DNA of 64,000 nt from Xanthomonas hortorum pv. pelargonii. Lineage in GTDB: Bacteria; Pseudomonadota; Gammaproteobacteria; Xanthomonadales; Xanthomonadaceae. The stretch's first letter is position 1, and the number at the start of each line of letters is the position of its first letter. Shown here one piece after another: positions 49,588 through 53,835 of the stretch. The stretch spans positions 620,001 to 684,000 of the forward strand of contig NZ_CP098604.1 of assembly GCF_024499015.1 (NCBI RefSeq), in the 5' to 3' direction. Made by a program: the position numbers and the translations under genes. The notes beneath the pieces were generated by a model. The model saw only the letters and a list, made by a program, of their open reading frames with translations. It searched no databases and was not told the origin of the DNA.

Positions 49588-51282
49588 TTACGAAGCCAAT
49601 GCCTGTTCGTGCACGCCGGCAATCGCACGACCGGACGGGTCGGCCATCGCGGCAAAACTCGCATCCCAGGCAATCGCGGTCGGCGACGAACACGCGATCG
49701 ACTTGCCGCCAGGCACCGTCTCCGCAGCCGCCTGGCTGGGGAAGAACTGCGCAAACAGCGTGCGATAGAAATACGCTTCCTTGGTCTGCGGCGGATTGAC
49801 CGGATAGCGCTTGTCGGCCGCGGCCAGCTCGCGGTCGCTCACATGCGCGGCGGCATGCGCCTTGAGTCCATCGATCCAGCCATAGCCCACGCCATCGCTG
49901 AACTGTTCTTTCTGTCGCCACAGAATCGACTCGGGCAGATAGCCGGCGAATGCTTCGCGCAACACGCCCTTTTCCATGCGCATGGCGCCGCTGCTGGTCT
50001 TGTCGATCATCTTGAAACTGGCATCCATGCGCATCGCCACATCCAGGAACTCGCGATCCAGGAACGGCACGCGCGGCTCCACACCCCAGGCCATCATCGA
50101 CTTGTTGGCGCGCAGGCAATCGAAGTTGTTTAGCGCATCGAGCTTGCGCACCAGTTCCTCATGGAATTCGCGCGCGTTCGGTGCCTTGTGGAAATACAGG
50201 TAGCCGCCGAAGATTTCATCGCTGCCTTCGCCGGAGAGCACCATCTTGACGCCCATCGCCTTGATCCGCCGCGCCAGCAGAAACATCGGCGTGGAGGCGC
50301 GAATGGTGGTGACGTCGTAGGTCTCGATGTGGCGGATGACTTCGGGCAGCGCATCCAGGCCTTCTTCGAAGGTGTATTCGAAGCCGTGATGCACGGTGCC
50401 CAGCGCGGCGGCAGCGACTTCGGCGGCGGCCAGATCCGGCGAGCCTTTCAAGCCGATCGCGAACGAATGCAGGCGCGGCCACCAGGCTTCGGTGGTGTCG
50501 TTCTCTTCGATGCGATGACGTGCGTAGCGCGCGGCAACGGCAGCGACCAGCGACGAATCCAAGCCGCCAGACAACAGCACGCCGTACGGCACGTCGGTCA
50601 TCAACTGGCGATGCACTGCACGCTCGAACGCCTCGCGCAATTCCTGCAACTGCACCTGCACGCCTTCCACTTCGGCGTATTCGCGCCAGGCGCGCTCGTA
50701 GTAGCGGCTCAATGCGCCGGTGGCGCTGTCGTACCAATGGCCGGGCGGAAACTGCGCGGCATCGGCGCAATCGTCGACCAGCGATTTCAGTTCGGAGGCC
50801 ACCAGCAAGCGGCCTTCGCGATCATGGCCCCAGTACAGCGGCACCACACCGATCGGGTCGCGCGCGATGATCACCCGCCCTGCAGCCTTGTCCCATAGCG
50901 CGAACGCAAAGATGCCGTTGAGGCGGTTGAGGTATGAAGCCGGCGCGTCTTCGCGATACAGCGCGTTGATCACCTCGCAATCGGAGCCGGTCTGGAACGC
51001 GTACGGCTGCGTCAGCTCCTGCTTGAGCTCGCGATGGTTGTAGATCTCACCGTTCACTGCGAGGGCGAGCTGCCCATCTTCGGACAGCAACGGCTGCGAA
51101 CCACCGGCCGGGTCGACGATGGCCAGCCGCTCATGCACCAGGATCGCGCCGGTATCGACATACACGCCGCTCCAGTCGGGACCGCGATGGCGCTGCCGTT
51201 GCGAACATTCCAGTGCCTGCCGGCGCAATGCCTGCAGATCGTCACCGGGTTGCAGGCCGAAAATACCGAAGATGGAACACAT
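49588..51282 (-). CDS. asnB: glutamine-dependent asparagine synthetase B
   Basis: The product is 564 residues from the Met at 51282, with AGGAG 8 nt before it and a Cys right after Met as the catalytic nucleophile (MCSIFGIFG). The glutaminase domain holds NGEIYNHRELK; the synthetase domain holds the pyrophosphate loop LLSGGLDSSLVAA and SGEGSDEIFGGYLY. It makes asparagine from aspartate, ATP and glutamine. An Asn-rich leader peptide and terminator directly upstream (51354-51506) point to attenuation control. A downstream tail of about 40 residues after the synthetase core is typical of this subfamily. Confidence 0.95.
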   Translation of the reverse strand: MCSIFGIFGLQPGDDLQALRRQALECSQRQRHRGPDWSGVYVDTGAILVHERLAIVDPAGGSQPLLSEDGQLALAVNGEIYNHRELKQELTQPYAFQTGSDCEVINALYREDAPASYLNRLNGIFAFALWDKAAGRVIIARDPIGVVPLYWGHDREGRLLVASELKSLVDDCADAAQFPPGHWYDSATGALSRYYERAWREYAEVEGVQVQLQELREAFERAVHRQLMTDVPYGVLLSGGLDSSLVAAVAARYARHRIEENDTTEAWWPRLHSFAIGLKGSPDLAAAEVAAAALGTVHHGFEYTFEEGLDALPEVIRHIETYDVTTIRASTPMFLLARRIKAMGVKMVLSGEGSDEIFGGYLYFHKAPNAREFHEELVRKLDALNNFDCLRANKSMMAWGVEPRVPFLDREFLDVAMRMDASFKMIDKTSSGAMRMEKGVLREAFAGYLPESILWRQKEQFSDGVGYGWIDGLKAHAAAHVSDRELAAADKRYPVNPPQTKEAYFYRTLFAQFFPSQAAAETVPGGKSIACSSPTAIAWDASFAAMADPSGRAIAGVHEQALAS

Positions 51283-51353
51283 GGAAACACTCCTGAAGAA
51301 ACTGCGGGGGTTGGCGGCCGGTGGAAGAGCGTGCTGCACGAAATGACACCCAT

Positions 51354-51384
51354 AAAAAAACCCGCATCGGCCGATGCGGGTTTT
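51354..51384 (-). terminator. terminator hairpin in the asnB leader
   Basis: Read leftward (asnB direction), a perfect 20-bp palindrome (51361-51380) starting CCCGCATCGG is followed by seven T (51354-51360). It lies 71 bp before the asnB start and 30 bp after the leader-peptide stop. The palindrome also carries AAAA on the other side, so it may work for both strands. It is the terminator of a predicted attenuator. Confidence 0.85.
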
Positions 51385-51413
51385 CTGATTCCTGGGCGTT
51401 TGCTGTACTTCGC

Positions 51414-51506
51414 CTAGTCGCAGATCCGCATCGGCCGCGCACGATTATTCGCGCGCAGATTGTTGCGGTTGGCGTTATTGACGAGGTTTGGCAGGAGCGA
51501 GGACAT
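51414..51506 (-). CDS. Asn-rich leader peptide of asnB
   Basis: The 30-codon ORF begins MSSLLPNLVNNANRNNL and has eight Asn (positions 7, 10, 11, 13, 15, 16, 20, 21), then ...RARPMRICD and a TAG. An Asn density of 27 % is far above expectation, and codons include NN at 10-11, 15-16 and 20-21. It lies directly upstream of a rho-independent terminator and of asparagine synthetase, as expected for a ribosome-stalling leader. A weak GGTCGAG may serve as the ribosome site. Confidence 0.8.
   Translation of the reverse strand: MSSLLPNLVNNANRNNLRANNRARPMRICD
51426..51437 (-). promoter_or_regulatory. antiterminator segment within the asnB leader
   Basis: CGGCCGATGCGG (leader codons 24-27, Arg-Pro-Met-Arg) is complementary over 12 nt to the 5' half of the terminator stem (51369-51380 region). 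If a ribosome stalls at Asn codons 15-16 or earlier, this segment is free to pair with the terminator arm and block the hairpin. This is the 2:3 pairing of classical attenuators. Confidence 0.7.
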
Positions 51507-51640
51507 GACTCGACCGTATCCCGCTTTCGACGGCGGCGCAACTGTTGCGATGGCAACCAAGCCCGGCATCGCAGACCACGCCGCGGTCGCACCGGCGTAT
51601 TGCGAGGATAATGACCGCCCCAACAATCGGCAGTAATGGA

Positions 51641-52513
51641 ATGACCCCACGCATCGGACGCATGCCGCCCCTGGCCCTGTTGCTTGCAGTGTTGCTGCAG
51701 GCCTGCAGCAGCAGCCCTCCGCGCACCGATCCAGTCTATCTGCAACAGCTGGAACAACAGGCGGCCGATGGCAGTTTCGACAGCGCGTGGAATGCGGCCG
51801 AACGCCTGGAGGCACGCAACGACCCGCGCGCCATCCCCTGGTACGAACGTGCCGCGGCGATCACCCCGTGGACGTTCCGCAACACCCGCGCCGAACTGGC
51901 GCTGGGACGAATCTGGGCAAGCGGGACGCTCTTCCATCCCGACAGCCCGCACGTCGACCAGCGCGTCGCATTACGTGCGTCGCCGCGCAAGGGCGAGCGC
52001 TGGTACCTGGCAGCGGCCATGCATGGAAACCCGTATGCCATCGCCGAGCTCGCCAAGTTCCACCGCGACCGTGGGGAGGCGGCTGCGGCGTTGCGCTGGG
52101 ATCTGCGCGCGACGATCTATGAGCGCTCCGCATCCGGATCGTCGGGGCTTCCCGCCGCCATCGCGCCAAGCGGCGGTGCATTGCACCCGCTGGTACGCGA
52201 CATCCAGCGCCGCGCCCGTAACGGCGATGCCGAGGCGCAGGTCGATCTTGGCGCGCTCCATGAAAAAGGAATGGGTGGCGTGGACAGAGACGGTACGGAG
52301 GCGCTGCACTGGTACCGGCGCGCGGCGGACCAGGGCAACGTGTATGGCCAGTATTTCTCCGGTCTGCTGCTCGGACGCGGCAGCAGCGGCGTGACGCGCG
52401 ACGTGGAGACGGCGGCAGCCTGGTTTGCCAAGGCGTCCGCACAGACGTTCTATATCGCCGACGAATCGCATTGGCGCGAGGCGATCAAACCGCCGTTCTG
52501 GACGTTCGACTAG
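51641..52513 (+). CDS. Sel1-repeat lipoprotein
   Basis: The 290-residue product starts at ATG 51641 and shows a lipobox (LLLAVLLQAC). The mature chain has Sel1-like helical repeats (GKGERWYLAAAMHGNPYAIAELAKFH and NGDAEAQVDLGALHEKGMGGV, then DGTEALHWYRRAADQGNVYGQYFSG). Such repeats mediate protein contacts in the envelope. It is divergent from asnB. Function is unknown. Confidence 0.85.
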   Translation: MTPRIGRMPPLALLLAVLLQACSSSPPRTDPVYLQQLEQQAADGSFDSAWNAAERLEARNDPRAIPWYERAAAITPWTFRNTRAELALGRIWASGTLFHPDSPHVDQRVALRASPRKGERWYLAAAMHGNPYAIAELAKFHRDRGEAAAALRWDLRATIYERSASGSSGLPAAIAPSGGALHPLVRDIQRRARNGDAEAQVDLGALHEKGMGGVDRDGTEALHWYRRAADQGNVYGQYFSGLLLGRGSSGVTRDVETAAAWFAKASAQTFYIADESHWREAIKPPFWTFD

Positions 52514-52707: not shown

Positions 52708-53835
52708 TCAGACCAGCAGGCGTTCGATCAGCGTGCGGTACAACGCCGGCAGCGCGTCCAGATCGGCCACGCGCACATGCTCGTCGACCTGGTGGATGCT
52801 GGCGTTGACCGGGCCGATCTCGATGCATTGCGCACCCAGCGGTGCGATGAAGCGCGCATCGGAGGTACCGCCGCCAGTGCTCTCTTCCGGCGGCGCTCCC
52901 GCAAACTGGCCCAGCACCTCGCGCGCGATGCTGCGCAGGCGCCCTTCCGGGGTGTAGAACGGCTCGCCGCTGCGATGCCAACGCAGCGAATACTCCAGCG
53001 CGTGGCGATCCAGCACTGCGGCAATCTCCGCTTCCAATCGCGGCGCATCCCAATGCGGGGTGTAACGCAGATTGAAGGCCACCTGCAGCTCGCCGGGAAT
53101 CACGTTGTTGGCGCCGGTGCCGGCATGGATATTGGAGATCTGCAGGCTAGTCGGCGGAAAACTTTCGAAGCCCTCGTCCCAGCGTCGTGCGACCAGTTCG
53201 GCCAAGGCCGGTGCTGCCAGATGGATCGGATTACGCGCCTTGTGCGGGTACGCCACATGCCCCTGCACGCCTTTCACCGTCAGCGTGCCGGACAGGCTGC
53301 CGCGACGGCCGACCCGCAACAGATCGCCCAACCGCTCGGTGGACGACGGCTCACCGGTGATGCACCAATCGATCGCCTGCCCCCGCTCGCGGAACAGCTC
53401 GGCCACCCGCCGCACGCCATCGATGGCATCGCCTTCTTCGTCGGAGGTCAGCAGCAGCGCCAGCGTGCCGGTGTGCTGCGGATGCGCGGCAACGAACTGT
53501 TCGGCGGCGACCACGAAGGCGGCCACTCCACTCTTCATGTCGGCGGCGCCGCGCCCGTACAGCACGCCATCGCGAATCTGCGGGTCGAACGGATCGCTGG
53601 TCCACGCCTCGCGCGGCCCCGGCGGCACCACATCGGTGTGGCCGAGCAGCACCAGCACCGGCGCACCGCTGCCGTGCGTGGCCCATAGATTGTCCACCTC
53701 GCCCAGGCGCAGGTGTTCGATAGCAAATCCGGCGCGCGCCAGCCGCTGCGCGATCAGTTCCTGGCAGCCGGCATCGTCCGGCGTCACCGACGGGCGGGAG
53801 ATCAGTTCACAGGTGAGGTCAACAATGTCGGACAT
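52708..53835 (-). CDS. dapE: succinyl-diaminopimelate desuccinylase
   Basis: The 375-residue M20-type enzyme has metal ligands in GHTDVVPPG (His), [11 protein letters not shown] (Asp) and TSDEEGDA (Glu-Glu), with a C-terminal [15 protein letters not shown]. It removes succinate from N-succinyl-LL-diaminopimelate, giving LL-DAP for lysine and peptidoglycan. It is the last well-supported gene of the leftward map-glnD-dapD-orf-arsC-dapE set, 44 bp after the arsC-like gene. Confidence 0.96.

Follow-up and report, generated by a model that had tools for sequence, protein, structure and literature searches.

A predicted asparagine-specific transcription attenuator upstream of asnB in Xanthomonas hortorum and its relatives

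Leader-peptide attenuators are known in proteobacteria for trp, his, leu, ilv, thr and phe. In rhizobia, the Sinorhizobium trp leader is leaderless, and the attenuated transcript of the rhizobial trp leader has been reported to act as a small RNA in trans. In Firmicutes, asparagine genes are under T-box control; T-boxes read the tRNA directly and have no leader ORF. Further, the available portion of PMC13236596 describes leaderless attenuator ORFs for cysteine in mycobacteria (citing Canestrari et al. 2020), while the available portion of a study of leaderless mRNAs in Bradyrhizobium (PMC4842269) mentions neither trpL nor a leader peptide. The attenuator survey PMC2965389, in its accessible part, has "asparagin" nowhere in its main text and "asn" solely in its reference list. 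Across the open-access literature, at the level of titles and the starts of abstracts, neither an Asn leader peptide nor an asnB attenuator was found, in keeping with a preliminary description of this DNA that knew of no described Asn leader for asnB in this group; subscription journals may hold one.

The window (the whole stretch of 64,000 nucleotides analysed, from Xanthomonas hortorum pv. pelargonii) carries on its minus strand an arrangement by which asnB is very probably controlled, namely an Asn-specific, ribosome-dependent transcription attenuator (Table 1). Its parts and their order are read directly from the sequence, and their conservation and mutually exclusive folds from comparison with relatives and from folding. 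In particular, the leader ORF of the preliminary description, with its eight Asn codons at positions 7-21, proved exact in its coordinates, its 12-nt segment is indeed complementary to the terminator arm, and its 20-bp palindrome followed by seven T (51354-51380) is present as described; the downstream gene it had named asnB scores 868 bits against the curated model NF006949 (cut-off 499) and matches E. coli AsnB (1ct9) at E = 5e-216. The asnB ATG is at 51282, 71 nt beyond the T run, and the protein begins MCSIFG. The leader peptide reads MSSLLPNLVNNANRNNLRANNRARPMRICD up to the stop codon, with Asn at positions 7, 10, 11, 13, 15, 16, 20 and 21. A strict consensus scan of 51000-51900 listed neither the promoter nor the terminator; the latter was missed, we infer, because A-T pairs lengthen its stem into the T run. 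No Rfam family reached its gathering score here, and near the leader the Thr_leader and Leu_leader models gave weak scores of 15-23 bits, against gathering scores of 55 and 50. No T-box match reached the gathering score in the window, and none appeared up to E = 5 in 51200-51650. Divergent from the predicted leader promoter lies a gene for a Sel1-repeat protein (Pfam PF08238; 51611-52510, plus strand), which stands between asnB and a dapE-like M20-peptidase gene (52711-53835); in some relatives (for example, L168) the M20-peptidase gene ends immediately upstream of the leader promoter.

Table 1. Predicted parts of the asnB leader, and asnB itself, with their positions in the window.
Feature	Position	Strand	Basis or remark
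Predicted -35 element, TTGCGC	51536..51541	-	Constrained promoter fit; absent from the strict consensus scan
Predicted -10 element, TACGGT	51513..51518	-	17-nt spacer; ends 6 nt before the leader ATG
Leader ORF, 30 codons and TAG, 8 Asn	51414..51506	-	Sequence; equivalent Asn-rich ORFs in relatives
Asn codon cluster (codons 7-21), proposed sensor	51444..51488	-	Sequence; Asn counts
Segment 1, 5' arm of the 1:2 hairpin	51449..51458	-	10-bp hairpin in the window fold
3' arm of the 1:2 hairpin, overlapping segment 2	51435-51444	-	Window fold
Segment 2, CGGCCGATGCGG, codons 24-27, predicted antiterminator strand	51426..51437	-	Pairs with segment 3
Small CTAGGCG/CGCCCAG hairpin, within the antiterminator loop, overlapping the stop codon	51392..51417	-	Window fold
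Segment 3, CCCGCATCGGCC, terminator 5' arm, shared with the antiterminator	51369..51380	-	Sequence, alignment and fold
Segment 4, GGCCGATGCGGG, terminator 3' arm	51361..51372	-	3:4 pairs intact in 294/295 cells of 37 sequences
Terminator palindrome, CCCGCATCGGCCGATGCGGG, 20 bp	51361-51380	-	Sequence
T7 run, predicted 3' end of the attenuated transcript	51354..51360	-	Sequence
AGGAG, Shine-Dalgarno of asnB, downstream of the terminator	51290..51294	-	Sequence
asnB, glutamine-hydrolysing asparagine synthase B, 564 aa	49588..51282	-	Curated model and match to E. coli AsnB (1ct9)

The same arrangement is widespread among relatives. The sample comprised 130 stretches upstream of AsnB homologues (L001-L070 and L077-L136), 35 of them from Xanthomonas, and a locus was called leader-positive when it had an Asn-rich short ORF (3-10 Asn) together with a terminator-like hairpin. 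Both were found in 101 of the 130 upstreams, all from three families (f1, f12 and f2), with L128 from a fourth (f7) as an extra case. In particular, the leader occurs in 76 of 79 upstreams from Xanthomonadaceae (f1; L082, L088 and L089 are without it), in 22 of 24 from f12 (all but L116 and L134) and in 3 of 3 from f2, and in at most 1 of 24 from the other families (L128, 1 of 8 in f7; 0 of 13 in f9; 0 of 1 each in f4, f5 and f10). Judging by the resemblance of its leaders to those of named Rhodanobacter and Dyella loci, f12 is presumably Rhodanobacteraceae; this spread beyond Xanthomonadaceae into a second family had been overlooked in the preliminary description. Two of the counted loci (L079 and L115) have just three Asn within 25 residues, and were included since a promoter and a terminator are in place. 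A strict rule requiring a hairpin and a T run is satisfied at 94 of 99 loci, and a relaxed rule at 102 of 102, the choice at L053 having been corrected by hand; the T run is weak in a few relatives, such as L101.

Moreover, 33 of 80 named loci have a leader, several of them overlapping genomes of the 130-upstream set. These belong to Xanthomonas, Stenotrophomonas, Pseudoxanthomonas, Luteimonas, Lysobacter, Thermomonas, Arenimonas, Rhodanobacter, Dyella, Fulvimonas and Frateuria, and to unclassified relatives; at six of them (L174, L184-L187 and L195) the strict rule missed the terminator, which was verified by eye. Four named loci are without a leader (L188, labelled Rhodococcus; L202, labelled Deltaproteobacteria; and the Lysobacterales MAGs L220 and L247), and no convincing leader was found at the other 43, among them Shewanella, Vibrio, Pseudoalteromonas, Aeromonas and Marinobacter, with L232 as a possible exception; one of the 43, L222, belongs to the order. 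By-eye inspection of two class-level relatives (G712 and G890) likewise found no Asn leader. The preliminary description had made its reading depend on the Asn codons being conserved upstream of asnB, and in these 101 of 130 upstreams and 33 of 80 named loci they are.

Several individual loci are of separate interest. The AsnB proteins of L088 and L089 are more distant (63-64% identity), which suggests a replacement of asnB there. L128, the lone leader-bearing member of f7, combines MFAIYNTINTTNNRLLRSAGSF with a terminator and a complementary segment. In L232 (560-1000), a Rubrivirga MAG whose record is labelled with a distant phylum, an asnB homologue lies downstream of a four-Asn short ORF (..NLTNANRNP..) and of a strong hairpin followed by T8, a single example of what is possibly an independent Asn leader.

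Within the window's six reading frames, at least six Asn residues occur in ten of 101,616 windows of 15 aa, all ten within this leader, and across the 909 short ORFs (10-150 aa) Asn makes up 2.1% of residues. Clustering of Asn by chance is unlikely; taken over whole ORFs the leader stands out less, as another mechanical ORF of 46 aa also has eight Asn, more spread out. Across 102 leaders there are on average 6.6 Asn in 31.6 aa (range 3-10 Asn), encoded by 316 AAT and 357 AAC codons (673 in total), compared with 1 AAT and 10 AAC (11 in total) in the window's asnB. The excess of AAT in the leaders may reflect the low-GC tip of the 1:2 hairpin or slower decoding. In 61 of the 102 leaders, nine residues follow the last Asn codon, so that the spacing to segment 2 and to the stop is preserved. 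Outside the Asn cluster, the peptides diverge widely (for example, ...NNANRNNLRANNRARPMR..., ...LNNNNANNNTRNDGWAGV and MRTIVVNNANNNNRPPPRVDD); between groups, their lengths range from 20 to 45 aa and their N-terminal sequences look unrelated. This pattern bears on what might stall the ribosome. Some leader peptides sense a general slowdown of translation, as the accessible part of PMC2965389 describes for ermC, and a stall here could in principle arise from the nascent peptide or another signal (an arrest peptide, an antibiotic or a general slowdown) instead of from the charging of Asn-tRNA. It is highly improbable that it does: arrest peptides need a conserved sequence, whereas here it is mainly Asn that is conserved, at shifting positions, and the product of asnB would itself relieve the stall.

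The calculations of RNA structure indicate how stalling on Asn codons could be converted into control of termination. Without a ribosome, the window RNA folds into the terminator 3:4 and a 10-bp 1:2 hairpin (51458-51449 paired with 51444-51435), a feature that the preliminary description had overlooked and that places the last two Asn codons (AAT) at its tip. In constrained folding, the front edge of the ribosome was assumed to lie about 12 nt past the first base of the A-site codon. With the A site at about Asn 16 or Asn 20, the predicted structure is the antiterminator 2:3 even when segment 4 is present, and 2:3 is likewise retained at about Asn 11; an A site at Asn 7 or Asn 21 leaves the complete RNA in the terminator fold at equilibrium, 2:3 being favoured there only as long as segment 4 has yet to be transcribed; a ribosome placed at the stop codon leaves just 3:4. 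According to this model the terminator and the antiterminator are mutually exclusive, and the pairing of a freed segment 2 with the terminator arm, which the preliminary description had proposed, is reproduced at most of the Asn positions tried. Over 37 family sequences (set A1, drawn from the 60 distinct leaders that passed a script filter; set A2 comprises 24 of the 33 other leaders), 2:3 is paired in 431 of 471 cells and 3:4 in all cells but one (Table 1). A fixed-register 1:2 helix was tried across the family and pairs in 220 of 284 cells (77.5%), and the hairpin is therefore claimed for Xanthomonas only; its local fold clearly beats shuffles (z below -1.5) in all 35 Xanthomonas loci, in 5 of 25 from f12/f2 and in 14 of 40 others, a count that leaves out two loci without an NN pair. 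The small CTAGGCG/CGCCCAG hairpin retains its GGC/GCC core in most of the 37 family rows and is less well supported than the other helices. Another linker hairpin (GGCG/CGCC) was rejected; it is partly kept (48 of 78 loci outside f12/f2 and 8 of 24 within) and does not rise clearly above shuffles.

Between groups, segment 2 and the terminator arm change together. The arm is CCCGCATC in most family members and GGCCCGC in f12/f2, where segment 2 is replaced to match. For the f1-main loci (n = 67), the mean duplex energy is -25.2 kcal/mol with their own arm versus -18.2 kcal/mol with the f12/f2 arm; for f12/f2 (n = 24), it is -23.2 kcal/mol with their own arm versus -14.5 kcal/mol with the f1-main arm. 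In the f1-short set of ten loci (nine from f1, and L080 from f12) the means are -17.5 kcal/mol with their own arm, -18.0 with the f12/f2 arm and -14.6 with the f1-main arm; there the own arm is not discriminated from that of f12/f2, and the antiterminator is not resolved in the short-leader loci. Three loci (L122, L125 and L132), whose Asn-bearing frames were judged not to be leaders, had been removed before the duplex analysis, and at L053 and L059 the segments had been set manually where the automatic choice of hairpin or segment was wrong. Compared with composition shuffles of this GC-rich sequence, the 2:3 duplex lies inside the 5% tail at 81 of 102 loci and outside it at 21, including most short leaders and several from f12. 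For 23 of 33 loci representing distinct arms, pairing with the own arm is better than the row mean. When the partner strand is shifted by 1-3 columns, 2:3 pairing falls from 91.5% to 23-39% in the family and from 91.7% to 31-57% in f12/f2. With so little variation in either strand, covariation within groups does not reach significance: 33 of 500 shuffles reach the covariation score and 45 of 500 the pairing score within the family, as do 448 and 500 of 500, respectively, in f12/f2. The preliminary description had looked to terminator/antiterminator covariation for support; it is seen between groups, in the duplex energies, and is not significant within them.

The conserved ORF with a good terminator behind it could also be read as the gene of a functional Asn-rich small protein, the hairpin being merely its terminator and asnB having a promoter of its own. 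Such a reading is extremely unlikely, in that the peptide is not kept between groups outside its Asn cluster, the segment within the ORF tracks the terminator arm, and the enriched residue is the very product of AsnB. A further reading starts from the 153-nt RNA, ending in a strong terminator, that attenuation would release: this RNA might act chiefly in trans as a small RNA. Little of its primary sequence is conserved between groups apart from the cis pairings, and a chief role in trans is very unlikely. Cis-acting attenuation of asnB is the preferred reading of both the ORF and the hairpin.

A promoter placed directly before the leader, which the preliminary description had overlooked, would make the leader mRNA probably leaderless. 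In a constrained fit that allows gaps of 5-9 nt before the leader ATG, TTG is present at -35 in all 101 leader-positive loci (TTGC in 100) and in 8% of shuffled upstreams, a T closes the -10-like box in 101 of 101, and the box ends 6-7 nt before the ATG in 96 of 101; a score of at least 12 is reached by 83% of real and 0.5% of shuffled upstreams. The box is TACGGT, TAGCGT or TAGCTT in Xanthomonas and often TTTAGT or TCTAGT in f12. Since the leader start was picked among in-frame starts by promoter score, which favours this result, the fairer figure comes from an unconstrained scan of up to 135 nt, whose best site precedes the ATG by 5-8 nt at 66 of 99 loci, compared with 2 of 99 when shuffled; among the rest, it overlaps or lies inside the ORF in 25 (18 of them at one place) and lies further upstream in 8. 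Further, of 99 loci, 7 have a Shine-Dalgarno-like 4-mer in front of the leader ATG and 96 have one in front of the ATG of asnB. Because the box ends 6-7 nt before the ATG and most loci have no Shine-Dalgarno sequence there, transcription probably starts at the A of the leader ATG or close by, on a leaderless mRNA. At L128, the best promoter found by eye lies further upstream, and the leader there would not be leaderless.

From these elements we infer the start of transcription, the stalling of the ribosome and the response to Asn as follows. RNA polymerase would start on, or right next to, the A of the leader ATG; a ribosome would load on the leaderless mRNA and trail the polymerase. When Asn-tRNA is scarce, the ribosome would stall within the Asn cluster and block 1:2, freeing segment 2 to pair with segment 3; with 2:3 formed, no terminator would arise and asnB would be transcribed. 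When Asn-tRNA is plentiful, the ribosome would reach the stop codon and cover segment 2, so that the terminator 3:4 would fold and RNA polymerase would stop at the T run, 71 nt short of asnB. On an untranslated leader, 1:2 would sequester part of segment 2, and termination would be expected as well.

A search of 390 family genomes with an RNA model of the leader (R1) matched 299 at E <= 0.01, a figure that is not a count of leaders, as weak matches may be terminator look-alikes; all 35 Xanthomonas genomes matched at E = 1.5e-37 or better. The window's own genome (G000) holds no second copy according to R1, which a divergent Asn leader would escape. The two other R1 matches in that genome were dismissed, one as the same palindrome read backwards and one as a bare terminator, and matches opposite the leader are likewise the palindrome read backwards. 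Nine extra matches (L143, L148-L151 and L153-L156) were inspected and taken as terminator look-alikes, having no Asn cluster nearby. One of these loci, L143, has near 1500 a terminator with the core GCATCG/CGATGC (GGCCGCATCGTCCGATGCGGCC), located elsewhere in the relative's genome, so the arm seen before asnB may belong to a recurrent type in Xanthomonas.

The genomic context of Asn-tRNA synthesis was surveyed in 61 genomes, of which 48 carry an AsnB of the window type (E below 1e-200). AsnRS scores above its cut-off in all 48 of these (59 of 61 overall), and GatB was found in none of the 48; among the 13 genomes without this AsnB, GatB is above its cut-off in 11 and present as a fragment in one more. 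With AsnRS present and GatB absent, all 48 rely on AsnRS and free Asn for their Asn-tRNA, and that Asn probably comes from AsnB, in a survey that covered AsnB, AsnRS and GatB. Paralogous AsnB-like proteins do occur in the surveyed genomes. As a separate observation, window-type AsnB and GatB are mutually exclusive among the 61 genomes, and within the order the supply of Asn-tRNA seems to switch between free Asn with AsnRS and the transamidation route.

Overall, this kind of switch is known, and its amino acid, its target and its combination with a leaderless start appear to be new. A more inclusive proposal, that an undescribed Asn-specific attenuator on a leaderless mRNA was present in the common ancestor of Xanthomonadaceae and Rhodanobacteraceae, with AsnB as the main source of Asn and the switch sensing the one product of the gene that it controls, is believed somewhat more than it is doubted. 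The amino acids for which leader-peptide attenuation is described are few, and an Asn version in two families would add to them; such an attenuator would also explain how AsnB is regulated in a group to which Stenotrophomonas and major crop pathogens belong. Should the leader mRNA prove leaderless, it would provide a natural test of whether ribosomes that initiate without a Shine-Dalgarno sequence can follow RNA polymerase tightly enough for attenuation of the classical type. Stall-site geometry can also be compared across the collected set of 102 leaders, in which the peptides drift and the sensor codons stay fixed.

The predicted Asn leader shares features with each of the closest known systems. 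As with the T-boxes of Firmicutes, the charging of Asn-tRNA would control Asn genes via termination. Like the trp, his, leu, ilv, thr and phe attenuators, it has a leader ORF rich in codons for the pathway's amino acid, mutually exclusive 1:2, 2:3 and 3:4 helices, and an intrinsic terminator before a biosynthetic gene; unlike them, it is predicted to sense Asn and control asnB, matches no Rfam leader family at gathering score, is probably leaderless with no Shine-Dalgarno sequence at most loci, and has a 1:2 helix not clearly kept outside Xanthomonas. Like the mycobacterial cysteine ORFs, as far as the available portion of PMC13236596 describes them, it is a short and probably leaderless ORF of codons for the sensed amino acid that would attenuate amino-acid genes; the amino acid and the phylum differ, and whereas that source assigns the cysteine ORFs to translation attenuation, the terminator and antiterminator of the Asn leader point to attenuation of transcription.
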